A stretch of 42,653 nucleotides of DNA, from positions 1-42,653 of the IMG/VR virus record IMGVR_UViG_3300033149_002557. One strand, given 5' to 3'. Positions 8,027 through 35,421 of the stretch are shown here, in pieces. The first letter of the stretch is position 1, and the number at the start of each line of letters is the position of its first letter. The notes under the pieces are model-generated. The model searched no databases. It saw only the letters and a list, made by a program, of their open reading frames with translations, and was not told where the DNA came from. The translations under genes were made by a program, and so were the position numbers. Source of the stretch: a virus.

Positions 8027-8110
8027 CGGCACGGCGCAAGCGCCGGGCGGCACGCGGTCCAAAGGAACCATCCTTTGCCGGTGGCCACTCGGCGCTTGTG
8101 CCGTTTCGTT
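8027..8110 (+). ncRNA. Folded leader upstream of the major capsid gene
   Basis: CAAGCGCCG (8037-8045) pairs perfectly with CGGCGCTTG (8090-8098). CGGCA (8027-8031) extends the stem with TGCCG (8099-8103) across a 5-nt bulge. A small hairpin AAAGG/CCTTT (8061-8076) lies inside. The segment ends in TTTCGTTT and is followed by GAGCGGAGGG and the capsid ATG. It may stabilise or regulate the abundant capsid mRNA, or act as a processing site or weak terminator. Confidence 0.5.
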
Positions 8111-8144
8111 TGCCGCCGGCTCAACATGAGCGGAGGGTAGACAC

Positions 8145-9494
8145 ATGAATAAGCTGGCTGAACTCGAACAGAATCGCGCCGCGCTCGGCACGCAACAGGC
8201 GGCGATTGAGGATGCCGCCGAGCAGAATGACGGCGGGGTGCTCACGGACGAGCAGCTTGCCGAATGGGAAAAGCTCGACGAGCAGGTCAAGGCGCTGACC
8301 GCCGAAATCGACGGCATCAAGGCGTCCCGCGAGGCCATTCGCCAGGCCCGCGAACAGCGAGCGGAATTTTCAAAACCGACCAGCCCGACCGGCTCGACGA
8401 CCGGGCGGATTGGCCAGCCGCGACTGGCGGCCGAAAACGACCCCAAGCGCGGATTCAAATCGTCGCAACAGTTCTTTCTGGCGGTCATGCAGGCCGCGCA
8501 AGGCAGCCGGCCAGACGAACGGTTGCTCGGGCTGGGACTACGGCGTAGTGAAATGCTGACCGCCGGCAGCGACGAGGCCGGCACCTATAGCGGCCCGTAT
8601 GGTGGTTTTTTCGTGCCCGAGGGTTTTTTGAGCCAGTTTCTGACCACGCCCAGTGAGGGCGACCCGATCGCCGGCCGCACGACCATCATCCCCATGGCCA
8701 CGCCGACAGTGACGCTGCCGGCCCGAACGGACAAGGACCACTCGACCAGTGTATCGGGCGGCTTGACCGTGCGGCGGCGCATGGAGACCGAATCGGTTAC
8801 GGCGACCCGAATGGAAATCGAACAGGTCAAGCTTAGTTCGTTTGCCTTGTTCGGCACCAGCTACGCCACTGAGGAATTGATTTCCGATTCGGCAATCAGT
8901 TTCGCGGCGCTGCTTCAACAGGGCTTCGCCGACGAATTCCGGGCAGCGATTCTCAACGAGCGGATCAACGGCTCGGGCATCGGTTGCATGGAAGGTGTCA
9001 CCAACTCGCCAGCCAAGATCGAAGTCGCCGCAGAAGACAACCAGGTCGCGGACACGATCGTCTACGAGAACATCTACAAGATGTTCGCGCGGTGCTGGCA
9101 GCCGGGCAATGCGATCTGGCTGGCCAATCACAACACGATTCCGCAACTGGTGATCCTCAACCAGTCGGTCGGCACGGCCGGCGTGCCGGTGTGGATGCCG
9201 TCGGCGGTCGGCGGCGTGCCGAACACGCTGTTCGGTTTGCCGGTCTTCTTCACCGAGTTCTGCGCCACGCTCGGCGATGCCGGCGATATCATTCTCTGCA
9301 ACTGGTCACAGTACCTGGAGGCCACTTATCAGACTCCGCAGTCGGCGTCCAGTATTCACGTGCGGTTCGAGAATCACGAGCAGACGTTCAAGTTCTTCAT
9401 GCGCAACGACGGTCGTGGGTGGTGGCGTAGTGCGTTGACCCCCAAGAACGGCGATACACTCAGTCCGTTCGTCACGTTGGCCGAAAGGGCGTAA
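8145..9494 (+). CDS. Major capsid protein, HK97 fold
   Basis: 449-residue major capsid protein. Residues 1 to about 85 are a charged coiled coil (NKLAELEQNRAAL; QVKALTAEIDGIKAS) that acts as an internal scaffold (delta domain) and is normally removed by the prohead protease. The mature fold probably starts near residue 137, where MLTAGSDEAGTYSGPYGG precedes the FFVPEGF strand. The C-terminal FFMRNDGRGWWRSALTPKNGD ending is typical. An isolated RBS (GAGCGGAGGG) and a structured 5' leader suggest high expression. Confidence 0.95.
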   Translation: MNKLAELEQNRAALGTQQAAIEDAAEQNDGGVLTDEQLAEWEKLDEQVKALTAEIDGIKASREAIRQAREQRAEFSKPTSPTGSTTGRIGQPRLAAENDPKRGFKSSQQFFLAVMQAAQGSRPDERLLGLGLRRSEMLTAGSDEAGTYSGPYGGFFVPEGFLSQFLTTPSEGDPIAGRTTIIPMATPTVTLPARTDKDHSTSVSGGLTVRRRMETESVTATRMEIEQVKLSSFALFGTSYATEELISDSAISFAALLQQGFADEFRAAILNERINGSGIGCMEGVTNSPAKIEVAAEDNQVADTIVYENIYKMFARCWQPGNAIWLANHNTIPQLVILNQSVGTAGVPVWMPSAVGGVPNTLFGLPVFFTEFCATLGDAGDIILCNWSQYLEATYQTPQSASSIHVRFENHEQTFKFFMRNDGRGWWRSALTPKNGDTLSPFVTLAERA

Positions 9495-21653: not shown

Positions 21654-21685
21654 CAGGGCTGAGTAGGCGGAACATCCGTGTAGGG

Positions 21686-21733
21686 CCAGCCAGCAAGGTC
21701 ACCTGGAACGTGTTACTTGTTGGCTGGTTTTTT
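21686..21733 (+). terminator. Rho-independent terminator between early unit and integrase
   Basis: CCAGCCAGCAAG (21686-21697) pairs with CTTGTTGGCTGG (21716-21727), 12 bp with one G-U pair, followed by TTTTTT (21728-21733). It ends the forward early unit before the convergent integrase. Confidence 0.9.
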
Positions 21734-21739
21734 GCGCGC

Positions 21740-22612
21740 TCACAATGTGGGTACTTGCGGCCGAACGCCATAGCTGATTGTCGGGTCGATGTATGCGCGT
21801 TCCGCCAGCCCCGGCGAGCGGTGCCCCAGGTGCGCCTGGCCGCCGCCGGGGTTGTCGCGCACGTAGTACGAGACGCTCGACCGTCGCAACCACTTGATGG
21901 TGCCGGTGTTGATCCCAGCGGCGTCACGGATGATCTTGATCTCGTCGTAGATGTACTCCCGTCGATATGGCCACGGGAACAGCAATTCCCGGTGCGGCGG
22001 GAATGTGGCCCGAATCGCTTCCAGCGTCGCCGGCCACAACGGCGGCGTGACATGCACGTGACCGGTCTTGTGCTGTGCTACTACTATCGTGCCGTCAGCT
22101 TGCACGTCTTCGGTCGTCAATCGGAGCAAATCGCCCAACCGCAAGCCGGTATCGTAGGCGGTGCGGATGAACGCGCTCCACCATCGACTGCGGCGAATCC
22201 CGCTGCGATAATAGCATCCCGGTCGCGTCTCCGCCGCCGCCAGCAACCGGCGTATCTGTTCGATCGTCCAACATCGCGGCACCGGCCGAGCGACGCGAAT
22301 TCGTCGCACGCGGCGGGTGTTCGGTTCCCGGTCATGGTAGCCGATCGTCGCGGCGTAGCGCCATGCGGCGAGTAATGCAGTCCGCTTGTTTTTGATCGTG
22401 CGCGGCGCTTGCTCCGTTGCTTCCAGGCTTACCAGCCAACGATTGATGGTCGCTTCATCGAGCGCCGCAATCGGCACCCGCCGGCCGGCCCACCGCTCGA
22501 ACAGCCGAGCGGCAACGACAAGCTGCTCCAGGGCATCGGGGCAAATGCCCCGCTCAAGACCGTAGACGTGCGTGACAAACTCTGTCAGTGAAAGCTGTTG
22601 CTGCGCAATCAT
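21740..22612 (-). CDS. int: Tyrosine integrase
   Basis: 290-residue tyrosine recombinase. It has an N-terminal core-binding domain and a catalytic domain with Arg158 (TGLRLGDLLRL), Lys182 (HKTGH), Arg243 (KWLRRSS), His264 (LGHRS) and the nucleophile Tyr274 (AERAYID). The usual HxxR first residue is Lys240, an unusual but tolerated variation. It inserts the phage at the tRNA-Leu site encoded just upstream. The reverse-strand promoter is at 22707-22735; GGAG precedes the ATG. Confidence 0.93.
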   Translation of the reverse strand: MIAQQQLSLTEFVTHVYGLERGICPDALEQLVVAARLFERWAGRRVPIAALDEATINRWLVSLEATEQAPRTIKNKRTALLAAWRYAATIGYHDREPNTRRVRRIRVARPVPRCWTIEQIRRLLAAAETRPGCYYRSGIRRSRWWSAFIRTAYDTGLRLGDLLRLTTEDVQADGTIVVAQHKTGHVHVTPPLWPATLEAIRATFPPHRELLFPWPYRREYIYDEIKIIRDAAGINTGTIKWLRRSSVSYYVRDNPGGGQAHLGHRSPGLAERAYIDPTISYGVRPQVPTL

Positions 22613-22738: not shown

Positions 22739-22796
22739 AGAAGGTTGAGGGCCTAGTGACCCTTAGGTCGTGGGGGTTCGAGTCCCCCTTCCCGCA
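22739..22796 (+). other. attP: attP-like site: 3' part of tRNA-Leu(GAG)
   Basis: This segment reads as the 3' part of a class II tRNA: anticodon loop TTGAGGG (GAG at 22747-22749), variable arm GACC-CTTA-GGTC (22758-22769), T-arm GGGGG-TTCGAGT-CCCCC (22772-22788), acceptor strand TTCCCGC and discriminator A at 22796. No CCA follows. The matching 5' half (acceptor GCGGGAA, D-arm) is absent upstream, so this is not a whole tRNA gene. Next to the integrase it is best read as the attP core. Confidence 0.85.
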
Positions 22797-22809
22797 ATTT
22801 GAAAATTGA

Positions 22810-22877
22810 AAACACGGCGGGTGCCGGGATGCGGTAACGCCCCGGGGGAGTCATGTCCTACCCCGCCCGCCGCGTTT
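22810..22877 (+). ncRNA. Folded RNA element between attP and repressor promoter
   Basis: AAACACGGCGGG (22810-22821) pairs with CCCGCCGCGTTT (22866-22877) with one mismatch. Inside are a hairpin CCGGG-AT-GCG-GTAA-CGC-CCCGG with a GNRA loop, and a third stem CGGGG/CCCCG. Together they make a three-way junction. The closing stem resembles those of the elements at 26233 and 26694. It may be a terminator for transcription entering from attP, or a small RNA. Confidence 0.5.
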
Positions 22878-22896
22878 GGAATCAAAACGAATCGCG

Positions 22897-22931: not shown

Positions 22932-23225
22932 ATGCAAGACATGGCCAACGTTGAAATTGTGGAGTTGCGGCGTGCCGAGAATTTACGGCGCAATCTTTGC
23001 CGAATTTTCTCGACATGGGGAAATCAAACTCGCGTGGCAAAGGATGCCCAGATTCACCGAGTCCATTTGGCACAAATCCTGAAGGGAAAAGCACTCAATC
23101 CAACGATTGGGACTATCGAATCGCTGTCGGTCGCGCTAGAAATCCCCGTAGAAACCTTACTGTCTCTTGATCCGTCGGACGTTGATCTGCGAATCCCGGC
23201 CGAAAAAAACAAGATCGGGGCTTGA
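22932..23225 (+). CDS. XRE-family repressor-like protein
   Basis: 97-residue protein with an XRE HTH: FSTWGNQTRVAKDAQIHRVHLAQILKGKALNPTIGTIESLSVALEIPVETLL. It is the size of a DNA-binding domain plus a short C-terminal extension; it lacks the autoproteolytic domain of lambda CI. It lies first after attP under a promoter with an inverted-repeat operator. It could be the lysogeny repressor or an early regulator. A start at 22941 is an alternative. Confidence 0.85.
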   Translation: MQDMANVEIVELRRAENLRRNLCRIFSTWGNQTRVAKDAQIHRVHLAQILKGKALNPTIGTIESLSVALEIPVETLLSLDPSDVDLRIPAEKNKIGA

Positions 23226-23250
23226 CGGCTAGCAAGATATATCTTACAAT
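23222..23250 (+). promoter_or_regulatory. Early right promoter with palindrome in the spacer
   Basis: TTGACG (23222-23227), 17-bp spacer, TACAAT (23245-23250). The perfect palindrome AAGATATATCTT (23234-23245) sits in the spacer. It overlaps the repressor stop codon and points to the methyltransferase operon. This is the best candidate for the main early promoter. Confidence 0.7.
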
Positions 23251-23251
23251 C

Positions 23252-23470
23252 GCCTTCGACGCTGATGAAAGTCGGCGTCGGAGGTATCTTCGGTCGAAGC
23301 TTCGGCCTCCCGTGGGTGCCTCATCCGGGAAAAACAGCCCTCAAAAGTAGCTGTGCAGCTCTTGATTGGTACGCGGCGGCGAAATTCACGGCTCGTTTGC
23401 CCGGCACAACCCGTAATATCGCGTCAGGTTGCACAGGAGCCCCGTGTGTGCGTCTTGAGGGCTGGGGGTA
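23252..23470 (+). ncRNA. Long structured leader before the methyltransferase gene
   Basis: From the expected start of transcription onward this untranslated stretch holds CGACGC...GCGTCG (23257-23280), GGAGG...CCTCC (23280-23310), and a perfect 10-bp closing stem CAGCCCTCAA/TTGAGGGCTG (23335-23344 with 23455-23464) around about 110 nt. It could be a riboregulatory leader or a separate small RNA. A short open frame inside (23265-23471) has no RBS and is rejected as a gene. Confidence 0.5.
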
Positions 23471-23519
23471 GTCCCCACCAATGGCCGCCGAGGCTCCAGA
23501 ACGGCCAAGGAACCGAATC

Positions 23520-24551
23520 ATGGCGACGGATGCCCGCGCACGGCCTACGGCTTTTGATTATACCGGCCTAACCGATGCCGAGGCAAAGGCGTTGGAAGGC
23601 CACGCAAGGGCCATTGACGCCACGCAAGACCGGGTTCGTCGAGTTACGGCCGAAGGCGTCCTGGCTCTTGGTCGGCACCTGAAGGCCGCTCAAGAGCGGC
23701 TGGCGAATTGCAAAAACGGCGTATTTGTGAAGTGGGCCAAACAACGGTGTGGCATCAGCACAGGAACCGCCTACAACGCCATTTCTGCTTTCAATACTTT
23801 CCAAAATTTGGAAAGTATATCACAGTTTGACGCCTCTTCCCTCTACCTTCTCTCCGCCGATTGCTGTCCCGAAAAGGCCACCACAAAAGCCTTGCGACTT
23901 GCCGACAAAGGCGAGCGCATCACGCACAAGCGGGCGCAAGAACTCATCGACGAGTTTACGATGGACGAGGAACCCTACTCGCCCGACTCGGCGGATCTTC
24001 CCGACGGTTGCTGTTGCGTCACCAGTCTTGATGAACTCGCCGGCGAACAGTTCGGGACGATCTACGCCGACCCGCCGTGGCAGTACGGCAACCAGAGCAC
24101 GCGGGCGGCGACTGACAAGCACTACCGCACCTTGACGGTTGACGAACTGTGCGCGATGTCGGTTGGTGACCTGGCAGCGGACGATGCCCACCTGCACTTA
24201 TGGACTACAAACGGATTTCTGCCGGATGCGTTTCGCGTCATCGCGGCGTGGGGATTCGATTACAAGTCATGTTTCGTATGGGTGAAGCCGCAGATGGGTA
24301 TCGGCAATTATTGGCGAGTCTCCCACGAATTCTTGCTGCTTGGTGTGCGGGGCGATGCGACACGATTCAATATGCGGGACAAGATGAGTTGGCTTCAAGC
24401 CGACCGCACGAAACATAGCGCGAAGCCGGAAGTAGTGAGTCAGATAATCGAACAGGTTAGTCCCGGCCCATTTCTGGAACTATTCGGGCGCCGGCCGGCG
24501 AAGGGCTGGACGGTGTTCGGGAACCAGATAGAGGCCAGGTTATTCGCATGA
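23520..24551 (+). CDS. MT-A70-type DNA adenine methyltransferase
   Basis: 343-residue protein. The C-terminal part is an MT-A70 methyltransferase with the catalytic DPPW in TIYADPPWQYGN, then HLHLWTTNGFLPDAF, WVKPQMGIGNYWR and a terminal FLELFGRRPAKGWTVFGNQ. The N-terminal 170 residues (LGRHLKAAQERLANCKNGVFVKWAKQRCGISTGTAYN) resemble a DUF3102-like DNA-binding domain. Likely N6-adenine methylation of phage DNA. ATG 23520 has AAGGAACC upstream; 23481 is an in-frame alternative. It overlaps the next gene at ATGA. Confidence 0.88.
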   Translation: MATDARARPTAFDYTGLTDAEAKALEGHARAIDATQDRVRRVTAEGVLALGRHLKAAQERLANCKNGVFVKWAKQRCGISTGTAYNAISAFNTFQNLESISQFDASSLYLLSADCCPEKATTKALRLADKGERITHKRAQELIDEFTMDEEPYSPDSADLPDGCCCVTSLDELAGEQFGTIYADPPWQYGNQSTRAATDKHYRTLTVDELCAMSVGDLAADDAHLHLWTTNGFLPDAFRVIAAWGFDYKSCFVWVKPQMGIGNYWRVSHEFLLLGVRGDATRFNMRDKMSWLQADRTKHSAKPEVVSQIIEQVSPGPFLELFGRRPAKGWTVFGNQIEARLFA

Positions 24552-25165
24552 CTGAACAAGATGCTCAAGAGCGGATTTGGAACATGGGCGCGGAACGCCT
24601 TGGGCAATTTGGTGAAGCAATATGGGCGCGGATATTCAAGGCATCAAACGTGAACTACATTCCGCTACACCAGATGATCGGCGATGGTGCTCCGATGGCT
24701 CAAGGGCAAGACAAAATGATACTACCGGATTTCGACGTTGCCGGCGAGAAATGGTGCGCTTATGTTGATTCAAAGGCAAAGACTCGGAGTATCTTGTTCA
24801 GGCGAATGAAACAAGAACGCCACGGCATCGACCGACGAAACTGGCAACAATATCAACTCATCGCAAGCAAGTACAAGAAGACGTGCGGGCTGGGAATCGT
24901 TGAGGGTTTTACGGAAGTGCGCAGCCAATGGTCTGGTAGTTTGCTATTGGAAACACTAAGTAACCTTGGTCAGCCTGCGCTGGGTATGAATGACCAAGGT
25001 CACATGGTTTACTGGCCTCGTAAACTGTTCGTTGAACTGGACCGATGGAGCGCGCTGGAGTTGTTAGCCATTGCCAATGGACAACTCAAAGTTAGCTACG
25101 AACATGAATTGACTCATATATTCTACACGCGGCATTTTAAGCAGCAACAACTATTTTCTTGCTGA
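24548..25165 (+). CDS. PD-(D/E)XK-type nuclease candidate
   Basis: 205-residue protein translated from an ATGA overlap with the adenine methyltransferase. Likely active-site pattern: Glu23 (FGEAIW), Asp61 (LPDFDV) and Asp74-Ser-Lys76 (YVDSKAK), which fits a D-x-K version of the PD-(D/E)XK core. Pairing with a methyltransferase suggests a restriction-modification-like unit, but it could also be a phage repair or resolvase nuclease. A closer family assignment is not possible from sequence alone. Confidence 0.6.
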   Translation: MTEQDAQERIWNMGAERLGQFGEAIWARIFKASNVNYIPLHQMIGDGAPMAQGQDKMILPDFDVAGEKWCAYVDSKAKTRSILFRRMKQERHGIDRRNWQQYQLIASKYKKTCGLGIVEGFTEVRSQWSGSLLLETLSNLGQPALGMNDQGHMVYWPRKLFVELDRWSALELLAIANGQLKVSYEHELTHIFYTRHFKQQQLFSC

Positions 25166-25188
25166 CCGATAGACAGGGAACACGAATC

Positions 25189-25425
25189 ATGGATGACATA
25201 CCTCAACGGTTCCGGATCACGACGAATGGCCAGCATTTCCGAGTCGAGCGACTCCACAAGCCGTGGTTTTGCCGCGTTGCAATTTGGCAGCCCGATTACC
25301 AGGCAAACGGTAAGTACGGTTGTTTCCCCGATGTCGAGTCAGCAAAGCAAGCCAAGGCCGCGGCGATCGCCAGGGAGCGGGCACGGCTGCGCGGCTGGCA
25401 GCCCATCGAGGAGGACACCCCATGA
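25189..25425 (+). CDS. Small protein, relative of the protein at 1848-2156
   Basis: 78-residue protein sharing RFRITTNGQHFRVERL at its start and ERARLRGWQP at its end with the 1848-2156 protein; 30 bp are identical at the DNA level. The middle differs. It ends in an ATGA overlap with the next gene. Function unknown. Confidence 0.7.
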   Translation: MDDIPQRFRITTNGQHFRVERLHKPWFCRVAIWQPDYQANGKYGCFPDVESAKQAKAAAIARERARLRGWQPIEEDTP

Positions 25426-25637
25426 TGTACCTCGACTTTATCCGCGATCATCCACTCGTCGGCTGGCTGTTTGGCGGCATGATCGTCAGCAGCGTGATCG
25501 GCGGCATGATCGTCTCCGCTTGGAGCCGAGCTGCTGAGCGACGGCGGTGGACCAGGACGGCAACCCCGCTGCTTGAAGAATACGAAAAGATTCGCCAGCG
25601 ACAACGGACACAGGACCGCGAAGGAAATAAGGAATAA
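25422..25637 (+). CDS. Small membrane protein with glycine zipper
   Basis: 71-residue protein starting in an ATGATG overlapping the upstream stop. One membrane helix WLFGGMIVSSVIGGMIVSAW contains GGMIVS twice, a glycine-zipper-like pattern that favours oligomerisation, followed by a charged C-terminus (RRRWTRTATPLLEEYEKIRQRQR). It may act in superinfection exclusion or membrane anchoring, but this is only a suggestion. Confidence 0.65.
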   Translation: MMYLDFIRDHPLVGWLFGGMIVSSVIGGMIVSAWSRAAERRRWTRTATPLLEEYEKIRQRQRTQDREGNKE

Positions 25638-25651
25638 CCCCCATGTTCCAC

Positions 25652-25737
25652 GGGAGTCACCACCATCAATTTGCTCTTTTCCTGGCGCCGGTCGGTGCGC
25701 GTTCGGGTGACTCCCGCGTGCCGGCCGGTGTTTTTTG
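25652..25737 (+). ncRNA. Terminator with upstream complement to its loop (switch-like)
   Basis: CCGGTCGGTGCGC (25689-25701) pairs with GCGTGCCGGCCGG (25717-25729), 13 bp with three G-U pairs, followed by TGTTTTTT. Its loop contains GGTGACTCCC (25707-25716), which is exactly complementary to GGGAGTCACC (25653-25662). The two pairings cross, so the RNA can form a pseudoknot or switch between two states. This architecture is attenuator- or riboswitch-like. Confidence 0.65.
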
Positions 25738-25751
25738 TATAGGGTGAGGCC

Positions 25752-25964
25752 ATGAATCAGCGATGGCGAATCACGGCGAACGGCAAGCTGTTGTGCGTTG
25801 ACTATGGCCCGGCGATGTACCAGCTTGACACCTTGTGGCCGCCGGCCGGGCACCGGTGCCGGTGGCGCGCCGAACAAGAGCCGGGCACGATGTTCGAGGC
25901 GGTCGGATTGGAAGACAAGCGGGAGTTCTGCTTCCTCATTTCACAATACGAGCACGAAGGGTAA
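25752..25964 (+). CDS. Small protein with RWRITANG start
   Basis: 70-residue protein preceded by TAGGGTGAGGCC. Its N-terminus QRWRITANGKLLCVDYG resembles the start of the proteins at 1848-2156 and 25189-25425. The rest is distinct (TLWPPAGHRCRWRAEQEPG, FCFLISQYEHEG). Function unknown. Confidence 0.65.
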   Translation: MNQRWRITANGKLLCVDYGPAMYQLDTLWPPAGHRCRWRAEQEPGTMFEAVGLEDKREFCFLISQYEHEG

Positions 25965-25968
25965 ACAC

Positions 25969-26232
25969 ATGAATATGACAAAAGAGTTGCACTGCGAGCA
26001 TTGCCAGAATGTTTTTGAGGCTGTGGCGGATGCCATCAATTCGCACCCCAGGTTTGTCGCTGTCGCGTTGCCAAGCCTGGATGGCAAGCATGTCTGGAAT
26101 AAAGTTGAATATGTATCGGACAGCACGTTCTGCGAGCGCGGAGAATCGTGGCTGGATGTCGATGACGAAGTAGAAATCATGGCGCAAGCATTTGAGGAAT
26201 GCGCTCAATTGATACGAGGAACCAATGAATGA
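25969..26232 (+). CDS. Small hypothetical protein
   Basis: 87-residue acidic protein with CxxC (CEHCQNVF) near its N-terminus. Preceded by AAGGGTAAACAC, one of the recurring AGGGTAAA initiation contexts. The C-terminus is rich in Glu and Asp (DVDDEVEIMAQAFEECAQLI). No family is recognised. Confidence 0.6.
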   Translation: MNMTKELHCEHCQNVFEAVADAINSHPRFVAVALPSLDGKHVWNKVEYVSDSTFCERGESWLDVDDEVEIMAQAFEECAQLIRGTNE

Positions 26233-26361
26233 ACACACGGCGGGGGAGTTTGTGCTAGAGTGCCAGAACGCGGAGCCAAGCGGGGTCTACGTCTACCAGC
26301 CTCGTAGCCACGTGCCGCGCGGGTTATCCTCGGCTTGAAGCCCGTTCTCTCGCCGTGTTTT
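26233..26361 (+). ncRNA. Duplicated structured RNA, copy A
   Basis: ACACGGCGGGGG (26235-26246) pairs with CTCTCGCCGTGT (26347-26358) in a 12-bp closing stem with two G-U pairs, ending in TTTT. Four internal blocks are shared, in order, with copy B: AGCCAAGCGGGG (26274-26285), TACCAGCCTCGTAG (26294-26307), CCACGT (26308-26313) and CTTGAAGCCC (26334-26343). Between blocks the sequence differs. It precedes the 98-residue gene; GGAGAAACACGACC follows as RBS. Confidence 0.65.
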
Positions 26362-26393
26362 GAACAAGGTAAACTCAAAGGAGAAACACGACC

Positions 26394-26690
26394 ATGGCTG
26401 ACGTGTATGTTACGCAGTATCTCTTACCGCACGGCAAAACAAGACGGATGGTAACGTCGGTGCCCGATGATTTGGCGGACACAATCCAAATAATCAAAGA
26501 TGTTGGCGCGGTGCTGGAGGCAGAAATACTTACGACAGGCGAAGTCAGTGTGACTATTACGAGTGGGGAGTGGGGCGATTATGACATTGCCGTGGTGCCG
26601 AACGGCCCGCAAGTTCCGGCGGCCGTAGAGCAACTCATCCGACGATTTGACCCGCAAGAATACTGCGCCTACGAACAGCTACAAACATGA
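26394..26690 (+). CDS. Small hypothetical protein
   Basis: 98-residue protein preceded by AAAGGAGAAACACGACC. It begins MADVYVTQYLLPHGKTRRMVTSVPDDLADTI, then a beta-rich EVSVTITSGEWGDYDIAVVPNG. Lies between the two copies of the duplicated RNA, whose presence in its leader suggests shared regulation with the next gene. Function unknown. Confidence 0.65.
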   Translation: MADVYVTQYLLPHGKTRRMVTSVPDDLADTIQIIKDVGAVLEAEILTTGEVSVTITSGEWGDYDIAVVPNGPQVPAAVEQLIRRFDPQEYCAYEQLQT

Positions 26691-26693
26691 AAC

Positions 26694-26812
26694 ACACGGT
26701 GAGAGAGTCCCTTTGGGGATGTGAAGCCGAGCGGGGAGCCATTACCCTCGTTAGACACAACCACGTTGGGCTGCTCCCGAGCGCTGAAGGCCCACGCTCT
26801 CGCCGTCTTTTT
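26694..26812 (+). ncRNA. Duplicated structured RNA, copy B
   Basis: ACGGTGAGAG (26696-26705) pairs with CTCTCGCCGT (26797-26806), followed by CTTTTT. Relative to copy A, changes in the closing stem keep pairing (C-G to U-G; two G-U to A-U). Blocks AGCCGAGCGGGG (26725-26736), TACCCTCGTTAG (26743-26754), CCACGT (26761-26766) and CTGAAGGCCC (26784-26793) match copy A in order. It precedes the 74-residue gene (RBS ACAGGAGGTGAC). Confidence 0.65.
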
Positions 26813-26829
26813 GAACAGGAGGTGACAAC

Positions 26830-27054
26830 ATGAATCCGCGATTGACAATCATAACTCCGAAACACGCATGTGACATAGCGCCGTTACCCACAGAAGAAAC
26901 CAACGACCTGGAAAGTGCGCTGACCGCGATGCTGGTTGGTGCATACAAAGGCGTGGGGAACGGCGCACTGCGACGCAAAGCGAAGGCCATGCGCGCGGCG
27001 GCCGATAAATTGGTTGAAAGCACATTAGTGGAACAAATGAATCACGAAGGCTAA
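26830..27054 (+). CDS. Small hypothetical protein
   Basis: 74-residue protein with AGGAGGTGACAAC upstream. A helix-rich C-terminus (GALRRKAKAMRAAADKLVESTLVEQM) follows a short N-terminal strand. Its leader is copy B of the structured RNA. No known family. Confidence 0.6.
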   Translation: MNPRLTIITPKHACDIAPLPTEETNDLESALTAMLVGAYKGVGNGALRRKAKAMRAAADKLVESTLVEQMNHEG

Positions 27055-27058
27055 GGAC

Positions 27059-27967
27059 ATGAATATCGAACCACACACATTTACGCACGATGGCGACCGT
27101 GTGCTCGGCTTGCGGCGCTGCAATGCCGACGGCACCTCGTACCGTGGTTTTGCCTGGCCTCGCGAGGGTCCGGTGGTCGCCGACAACTGGGAACCAACGG
27201 ATTGTTGCGGGCATGGTCTGCACTGCTGGCCGTGGGGCTTGGGTCTGGGCGAGGGCTGCGACTTCGATCTGATAGAGGATCGGTGGCAGGTCCTGGAAAT
27301 CGACCCTCGCACGCCGATCGTGGGCAACCTGGAGGGCGGCTGGAAAATGAAATGCCGCGAATGCGTGGTTCGCACGTTCGACAATTTTTCCGATGCCTGG
27401 GATGTAATCGCGGCGGGACAGGCAGCGCTGATTGCATTGATGGCGGCCGGCGGGAAGAACAAACTTGTCGCAACGGAGGTGGGGAGCAAACTTGTCGCAA
27501 CGGGCGCGGACAGCAGACTTGTCGCAGCGGGCGCGGGGAGCACGCTTGTTGCGGTCGGCGCGGACAGCGAACTTGTGGCGGCTGGCACGGACAGCAGACT
27601 TATCGCGACCAGCAAACGGAGCAAGCTGGCCGCGACCGGCCTGGAGTCGTGTTGCGTGGCGGTCGGCGCGGAAAGCAAACTTGTGGCGGCGGACGTGGCG
27701 AGCAAACTTGTCGCAGCGGGCGCGGACAGCACGCTTGCCGTGGTCGGCAGGTACAGTAAGCTGACCGCAATCGGCGCGGAGTCGTGTTGCATGGCGGCAG
27801 GCGTGGGGAGCAAGGTGCGAGTCGGTGACGGTGGGGCGTTTTGCCTGCGCGGCAACGACCCCGCCGGCAACCCGCGACTTGTGGTGGGCCACGTCGGCGA
27901 AAACAGCATCGTGGCCAATACGTGGTACGAACTCGACGAGAACCTGCAAATCGTTCCGGTAGAATAG
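27059..27967 (+). CDS. Protein with decapeptide beta-solenoid repeats
   Basis: 302-residue protein. The N-terminal domain (GLRRCNADGTSYRGFAWPREGPVVADNWEP...CCGHGLHCWPWGLGLG) is a compact Cys/Gly-rich module, followed from about residue 135 to 260 by some twelve degenerate ten-residue repeats of the type SKLVATGADS and SRLVAAGAGS, encoded by roughly 30-bp imperfect DNA repeats. Such repeats form a small parallel beta solenoid. The C-terminus (LVVGHVGENSIVANTWYELDE) closes the fold. It starts 4 bp after the preceding gene. Confidence 0.75.
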   Translation: MNIEPHTFTHDGDRVLGLRRCNADGTSYRGFAWPREGPVVADNWEPTDCCGHGLHCWPWGLGLGEGCDFDLIEDRWQVLEIDPRTPIVGNLEGGWKMKCRECVVRTFDNFSDAWDVIAAGQAALIALMAAGGKNKLVATEVGSKLVATGADSRLVAAGAGSTLVAVGADSELVAAGTDSRLIATSKRSKLAATGLESCCVAVGAESKLVAADVASKLVAAGADSTLAVVGRYSKLTAIGAESCCMAAGVGSKVRVGDGGAFCLRGNDPAGNPRLVVGHVGENSIVANTWYELDENLQIVPVE

Positions 27968-28091
27968 GACCGACAGGCATGAGGCCGGTCGGAGGGAGCG
28001 GCGATGACGCCGCATTGACAGGACCGCAGTGGCGCGAAAGTGTGTCGCGGACGGCGCTCGCCGGCAAGGTGGCGGGCGGGCGCCGGCTTTT
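27968..28091 (+). ncRNA. Hairpin-rich intergenic RNA before the RecE-like gene
   Basis: Contains a GACCG/CGGTC hairpin (27968-27990), GCGGCG-ATGA-CGCCGC (27998-28013), and GCCGGC/GCCGGC (28060-28065 with 28082-28087) followed by TTTT. It resembles a leader with a weak terminator. No gene fits here. Confidence 0.45.
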
Positions 28092-33551: not shown

Positions 33552-33824
33552 GGCAGGGCAAGGCGCGGCAAGGCTTGGCAGGCGAGGCGCGGCGAGGCCT
33601 GGCGGGGCAAGGCCTGGCAAGGCGCGGCAGGCGCGGCAGGCGAGGCTTGGCCAGGCCGGGCATGGCCGGGCGGGGTGAGGCACGGCTGTCATGGCAAGGC
33701 GAGGCTTGGCCTGGCGAGGCTCGGCGCGGCGAGGCATGGCGTGGCAGGCAAGGCTTGGCGAGGCTTGGCCAGGCCGGGCGAGGCCTGGCGAGGCCAGGCG
33801 CGGCAAGGCACGGCGGGCACGGTG
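33552..33824 (+). repeat. GGCNN pentanucleotide array 1
   Basis: About 55 units of GGC plus two variable bases, with a dominant 5-bp period (occasionally 4 bp), between the stop at 33540 and the gene at 33855. The variable dinucleotides (AA, GC, TT, GA, CT, CG and others) do not follow an obvious order. Long open frames in it are byproducts of the 5-bp period. A landmark GGCACGGCTGTC is shared with array 2. Confidence 0.95.
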
Positions 33825-34391: not shown

Positions 34392-34408
34392 CACTTGCTT
34401 TTGCTCAC

Positions 34409-34587
34409 GGCAGGCACGGCGAGGCTAGGCCAGGCAAGGCGGGGCTTGGCTCGGCCGGGCAAGGCTTGGCAGGCGAGGCGAGGCGGGGCATGGCATGGCA
34501 CGGCTGGGCTTGGCGTGGACGGCACGGCTGTCGTGGTTAGGCACGGCTGGGCGTGGCAAGGCACGGCGAGGCAAGGTGTGGTACGGA
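34409..34587 (+). repeat. GGCNN pentanucleotide array 2
   Basis: About 33 GGCNN units in the same orientation as array 1, between the genes at 34391 and 34624. It shares the landmark GGCACGGCTGTC with array 1. Some units are degenerate (GGTTA, GGAC). Confidence 0.95.
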
Positions 34588-35034: not shown

Positions 35035-35094
35035 GAATAAGGGAATACCCTAACATCGAAAAGACAGGAGAATCACAGCGGAAAGGGTAAACGC

Positions 35095-35421
35095 ATGACC
35101 TTTGACGATTACCAGACCATCGCCGTGGCGACAGCCGTATACCCGACCGACATCCGCGTCCTCTACCCGGCACTCGGCCTTGCCGGCGAGGCCGGCGAGG
35201 TTGCCAACAAGGTCAAGAAGATTTACCGCGACGATGGTGGCCAAGTGACCGATGATCGGCGGACACAGATCGCTCACGAACTTGGCGGCGTGCTCTGGTA
35301 CGTGGCGGCGGTCTGTGCGGACTTGAACCTCAACATGGGCGACGTGGCCCGCGAGAACGCTACCATCCTCGCATCGCGGCAAGAACGTGGCACGCTCCAC
35401 GGCGACGGAGACGAACGATGA
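35095..35421 (+). CDS. MazG-like protein with altered active site
   Basis: 108-residue MazG/nucleotide pyrophosphohydrolase-like protein. GLAGEAGEVANKVKK fits the first ExxE of the family, but the second motif reads HELGGVLWY where ELGD is expected, so the metal-binding Asp is replaced by Gly. It may be inactive or use another residue. It has an ATGA overlap with the methyltransferase gene and AGGGTAAACGC upstream. Confidence 0.7.
   Translation: MTFDDYQTIAVATAVYPTDIRVLYPALGLAGEAGEVANKVKKIYRDDGGQVTDDRRTQIAHELGGVLWYVAAVCADLNLNMGDVARENATILASRQERGTLHGDGDER

Follow-up and report, generated by a model that had tools for sequence, protein, structure and literature searches.

The Phage and the Genes at the Locus

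The window, that is, the whole stretch of DNA analysed here, comprises the 42,653 bases of a virus record, in which genes for terminase, portal, major head protein and tape measure are present together with an integrase, a small possible repressor and further genes for replication, a methyltransferase, RecT and a DUF3799 protein. The record is that of a temperate tailed phage. The two intergenic elements considered in this work, E1 and E2, lie among small genes on the plus strand, and the relevant features are as follows.

21740–22612, minus strand: integrase gene
22932–23225: small possible repressor gene
23222–23250, plus strand: promoter-like site TTGACG-17-TACAAT, the nearest good one upstream of E1 and E2
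25969–26232, plus strand: gene for an 87-aa protein without family match, upstream of E1
26232–26365, plus strand: E1, with closing stem, 94-nt insert, T-run and GAAC tail
26236–26249, plus strand: 5' arm of the E1 closing stem
26274–26285, plus strand: shared internal block, E1 copy, AGCCAAGCGGGG
26344–26357, plus strand: 3' arm of the E1 closing stem, followed by TTTT at 26358–26361
26394–26690, plus strand: gene for a 98-aa protein with relatives in Rhizobium phages only, between E1 and E2
26690–26814, plus strand: E2, with closing stem, 85-nt insert, T-run and GAAC tail
26696–26705, plus strand: 5' arm of the E2 closing stem
26725–26736, plus strand: shared internal block, E2 copy, AGCCGAGCGGGG
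26797–26806, plus strand: 3' arm of the E2 closing stem, with the T-run at 26808–26812
26830–27054, plus strand: gene for a 74-aa protein without match, after E2

Beside the integrase gene, positions 22742–22796 contain the 3' end of a tRNA-Leu, which runs from the GAG-containing anticodon loop as far as the acceptor end. Judged by its sequence this fragment is the probable attP core, and integration into a tRNA-Leu gene would follow. No exact match to it was found in the species genomes, and partial matches were obtained only in sampled planctomycetes. Among the genomes found in the species collection, none has a terminase more than 52% identical to that of the phage, and the closest one comes from a planctomycete bin; one viral fragment of 15.6 kb carries an identical terminase, the other terminase matches reaching at most 52%.

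Two Related Elements with a Common Closing Stem

The first-pass annotation of this DNA described two related intergenic elements with a common closing stem, and both are indeed present, their likeness as wholes exceeding that of all 2000 shuffles. E1 is closed by the stem ACGGCGGGGG/CUCUCGCCGU, which reaches 14 bp when extended, and E2 by the 10-bp stem ACGGUGAGAG/CUCUCGCCGU; the 3' arm CTCTCGCCGT is identical in the two copies, to which the T-run and GAAC are also common. In the fold predicted with 40-nt flanks, the pairs of the closing stem have probabilities of 0.88–1.00 in both elements. The stems differ at three places (C-G to U-G once, G-U to A-U twice) and pairing is kept at each of them, as had been reported, with the qualification that comparison of the two copies yields one-sided changes only: because all three lie on the 5' strand, they are weak evidence. 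When any position in the element was allowed, a stem matching the E1 stem in length was rare in shuffled sequence (2 of 300), while one matching the E2 stem was not (61 of 300).

The T-run after the stem is short, 4–5 nt (TTTT in E1 and CTTTTT in E2), and is followed by an RBS-like sequence (26377–26383 and 26817–26822, respectively) and then by a small gene, in agreement with the order described earlier. The 5' arm starts 3 nt (E1) and 5 nt (E2) past the stop codon of the upstream gene, the 3' arm and U-run sit 110–125 nt beyond that codon, and the whole stem-loop measures about 111–122 nt.

The likeness between the copies is concentrated in the arms. That of the 3' arm with its tail was matched by none of 2000 shuffles and that of the 5' arm by 0–10 of 2000, whereas between 47 and 334 of 2000 shuffles, according to the scoring used, equalled the likeness of the interiors (~90 nt) once the arms were removed, and that likeness is marginal. 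Thus, of the four internal blocks said to be shared in the same order, one clear block, AGCCRAGCGGGG, was recovered. The interiors fold no better than shuffled sequence (z of +0.98 and −0.42), and the conserved internal structure expected of a regulatory RNA family was not found in E1 and E2. A common inner helix, AACG/CGUU in one copy and UGUG/CACG in the other, was considered and rejected, since 22% of shuffles did as well. What looked like duplicated RNA is for the most part common stem and tail.

Searches for Relatives

The search of phage and planctomycete sequence with a covariance model, proposed in the first-pass annotation, gave nothing outside the window. Rfam produced no match above the gathering threshold in the window, and a permissive search of the region gave chance-level matches only. 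In IMG/VR, the paired arms as a DNA pattern had no match; the internal blocks had 30, whose 50-nt flanks showed no arms; the 5' arm had 13, none with the 3' arm; and the 3' arm plus T-run had one, without the 5' arm in the flank viewed. A single IMG/VR match to the stem with compensation allowed was discarded, as it lies inside a 662-aa coding frame.

Searches of phage records by blastn with E1 and with E2 returned no match, and RecT as a route to related phages led to none. The 98-aa protein, used in the same way, has relatives in Rhizobium phages only; there the homologous gene overlaps or abuts the preceding gene, so no E1- or E2-like element fits. The model built from the two copies found nothing in 21 terminase-related virus records and the best planctomycete genome, and in 392 planctomycete genomes it gave a single match, confined to the inner part and no better than expected by chance from so many genomes. 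A profile of the 98-aa protein had no match in the planctomycete genomes.

A Weaker Third Site and Other Stems between Genes

Within the phage, the same model found a third site.

22807–22884, plus strand: E0, shorter, with related arms and a poor T-run, adjoining the attP-like tRNA fragment

The likeness of its two arms to those of E1 was reached by 0 and 3 of 3000 shuffles; that to E2 is less clear (34 and 126 of 3000). By its sequence E0 appears to be a weaker relative of E1 and E2.

Stems were surveyed throughout the phage by gene calling and folding of all spacers, and by a terminator scan that permitted long loops. Strong spacer stems with a T-run were also detected at the following positions.

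2173–2287: 13 bp, 89-nt folded insert, T6
8031–8104: 21-bp helix, just before the major head protein gene
21684–21729: stem with T-run
25684–25730: hairpin with T6
28052–28085: stem with T-run

A T-run follows 7 of 11 strong spacer stems against a background of 4.4%, a contrast whose computed p-value exaggerates it, part of the set having come from the scan that requires a T-run. These data fit the view that terminator-like stems between genes are a general habit of the phage, E1 and E2 being long-looped examples that share one stem.

Some of these spacers have peculiarities of their own. The stem at 2173–2287, upstream of a 164-aa gene that precedes the terminase gene, has the architecture of E1 and E2 without clear sequence similarity. 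In the hairpin region 25651–25736, the 13-nt loop region contains GGTGACTCCCG, the exact complement of CGGGAGTCACC at 25651–25661, a possible pseudoknot or switch on a terminator. In addition, a structured non-coding stretch of ~250 nt (23226–23480), bounded by the outer 10-bp inverted repeat CAGCCCTCAA/TTGAGGGCTG, stands between the promoter-like site, which it follows directly, and the MT-A70 methyltransferase gene, and is a candidate leader RNA.

What the Elements May Be

The undescribed family of regulatory RNA put forward in the first-pass annotation was not supported, given the lack of homologues, the one-sided stem changes, the lack of a common interior fold and the terminator-like stems in other spacers. 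A dedicated regulatory RNA, whether a leader with a sensing domain, an attenuator or an sRNA freed at its own terminator, would have the insert as its working part, and such a reading, which we consider unlikely, could draw on the existence of two related copies whose closing stem is well formed, on the one internal block and on the placement before small genes with an RBS. It is opposed by the negative results in Rfam, phage records, IMG/VR patterns, the related virus records and the planctomycete genomes, by interiors that are marginally alike, fold no better than shuffles and have their inner helix at chance, and by the fact that no promoter of their own was seen for E1 and E2. The bolder proposal, a phage RNA class of which they would be the founding pair and whose terminator stem, fitted with a ~90-nt sensor insert, would be switched by upstream translation or a bound factor, ranks below every reading discussed here except the protein-coding one, and a new regulatory RNA class is required by nothing found here.

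RNase III-type processing sites are known from phage T7, and E1 and E2 could be intercistronic processing or stability elements of this type, the helix being cut or protecting 3' ends and stopping being beside the point. The location between small genes of one operon would suit such a role, as would the long helix before the major head protein gene; however, the U-run directly after the stem is not needed for it, and the closing stems are short, since an RNase III site is a helix of about two turns and the continuous helix of E1 and E2, by prediction only, has 10–14 bp. We rate it a little below the regulatory RNA. Lower again comes duplicated DNA without a role of its own, its arms having been dispersed by recombination or having come in as the inverted repeats at the ends of a small insertion: the arms are common to three sites with inserts of different lengths, and TGAA-like sequence flanks them on both sides, but these flanking repeats are short and partly within the stem, no copies were found elsewhere in phage records or the 392 planctomycete genomes, all stem differences keep pairing and the T-runs are on the coding strand. 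As to coding capacity, open reading frames run over both elements (26225–26338, 37 aa, in E1; 26687–26833, 48 aa, in E2), begin at the upstream stop codon and stand in one and the same frame when measured from the shared ends, with a net length difference of 9 nt. In codon score each stands at about −0.17 bits per codon, which is the level of wrong frames and lower than in over 99% of true coding windows, unlike the small neighbour genes (+0.18 to +0.32), and the E1 frame ends ahead of the best conserved stretch; by codon usage both frames look non-coding, and two small protein genes are highly improbable.

Codon score, closing stem and the U-run on the coding strand bear out the earlier statement that this is not ordinary spacer but non-coding and structured. 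E1 and E2 are real, related and terminator-like. Of what had been suggested for their role, a terminator or attenuator fits best, and about half of our confidence goes to the reading that, as paralogous 3'-end elements, they belong to the intrinsic-terminator type and sit between the cistrons of a rightward early operon. Their function is probably ordinary, and what is unusual is the insert. In favour of the terminator reading, a T-run on the plus strand follows the 3' arm immediately in both copies; the insert lengths of 94 and 85 nt, the short T-runs and downstream genes in need of read-through count against it, and a plain terminator leaves the internal block AGCCRAGCGGGG unexplained, if that is more than chance. 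Arms that are alike around interiors that are marginally so are expected if stem and tail are what matters.

The terminator-type reading takes stem, U-run, strand polarity, position, non-coding character and arm likeness from the sequence, and from these we infer termination, partial read-through and an effect of the ribosome. The nascent RNA would fold the GC-rich closing stem of 10–14 bp directly before the U-run of 4–5 nt, at which a fraction of polymerases may halt; alternatively, the stem may set the 3' end of the upstream message. Remaining polymerases would continue past the stem and transcribe the next small genes as well as the recombination genes. Since the plus strand showed no promoter-like site from 23250 to 26822, the genes after E1 and E2 need read-through, for which partial stopping or antitermination would be the route; antitermination lets long operons carry internal terminators (PMC8955417), and in phage HK022 it is performed by a leader RNA (PMC9378689). 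In Escherichia coli, the efficiency of a terminator fell from ~90% to <10% through the action of ribosomes when a stop codon was relocated to 5 bp in front of it (PMC4824070). As the 5' arm begins only 3–5 nt after the stop codon, a terminating ribosome could keep the stem open here, and stopping may thus hinge on translation of the upstream gene. The 3' arm comes ~100 nt later, and any such effect would vary with the distance at which the ribosome follows.

If the stems stop transcription, terminators with inserts of ~90 nt exist and are repeated within one phage, tools with the usual loop limits (13–20 nt; PMC12207403) would miss them, and the elements would offer a simple setting in which to ask whether a terminator can be controlled by a ribosome standing at a stop codon >100 nt upstream of its U-run. 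If they do not, what remains of the apparent duplication is mainly the common stem and tail.

Comparison with Described Elements

Canonical intrinsic (Rho-independent) terminators have a loop of 3–13 nt and a stem-loop of at most 59 nt (PMC12207403). E1 and E2 resemble them in having, after a gene and on the coding strand, a GC-rich stem (10–14 bp where at least 4 bp are required, with pair probability near 1) and directly after it a U-run, although a short one (TTTT and CTTTTT). With loops of 94 and 85 nt and a total of ~111–122 nt they exceed both length limits, and for this reason are not filed as canonical terminators; they may nevertheless work like one.

Among repeated inverted repeats described in front of small phage genes, the closest are the extended start-associated sequences (ESAS) of cluster K mycobacteriophages, which likewise precede small non-structural genes, have arms of 17 bp, a spacer of 4–13 bp and an adjoining 13-bp start repeat (SAS), GGGATAGGAGCCC, and are of unsettled function (PMC3203893). 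The elements of the present phage differ in their spacers of 44–98 nt (85–98 in E1 and E2) and in the trailing T-run; GGGATAGGAGCCC was not seen in the E1 and E2 spacers, and both fall outside the definition of ESAS. Several terminator-like stems to be passed inside one operon recall conjugation operons (PMC8955417) and HK022, whose put RNA (PMC9378689) has a further parallel in the structured stretch after the promoter-like site at 23222. In those systems internal terminators go together with antitermination; for the present phage an antitermination factor or a put-like RNA would be hypothetical.

Other Observations on the Phage

The 403-aa protein encoded at 87–1298 matches both the ParB-like and the phosphoadenosine phosphosulfate reductase families. 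A small gene segment occurs in two copies that are distant in the phage (1898–2096 and 25206–25413; 80–84% in parts), and long GGCNN-type repeat arrays (33552–33815 and 34404–34583) occupy the spacers flanking one gene on either side. The repeat GAAGGGTAAACACATGA is present around ribosome-binding sites and start codons at 8129–8152, 25953–25976, 27043–27066 and 35079–35102, an arrangement similar in idea to start-associated sequences.
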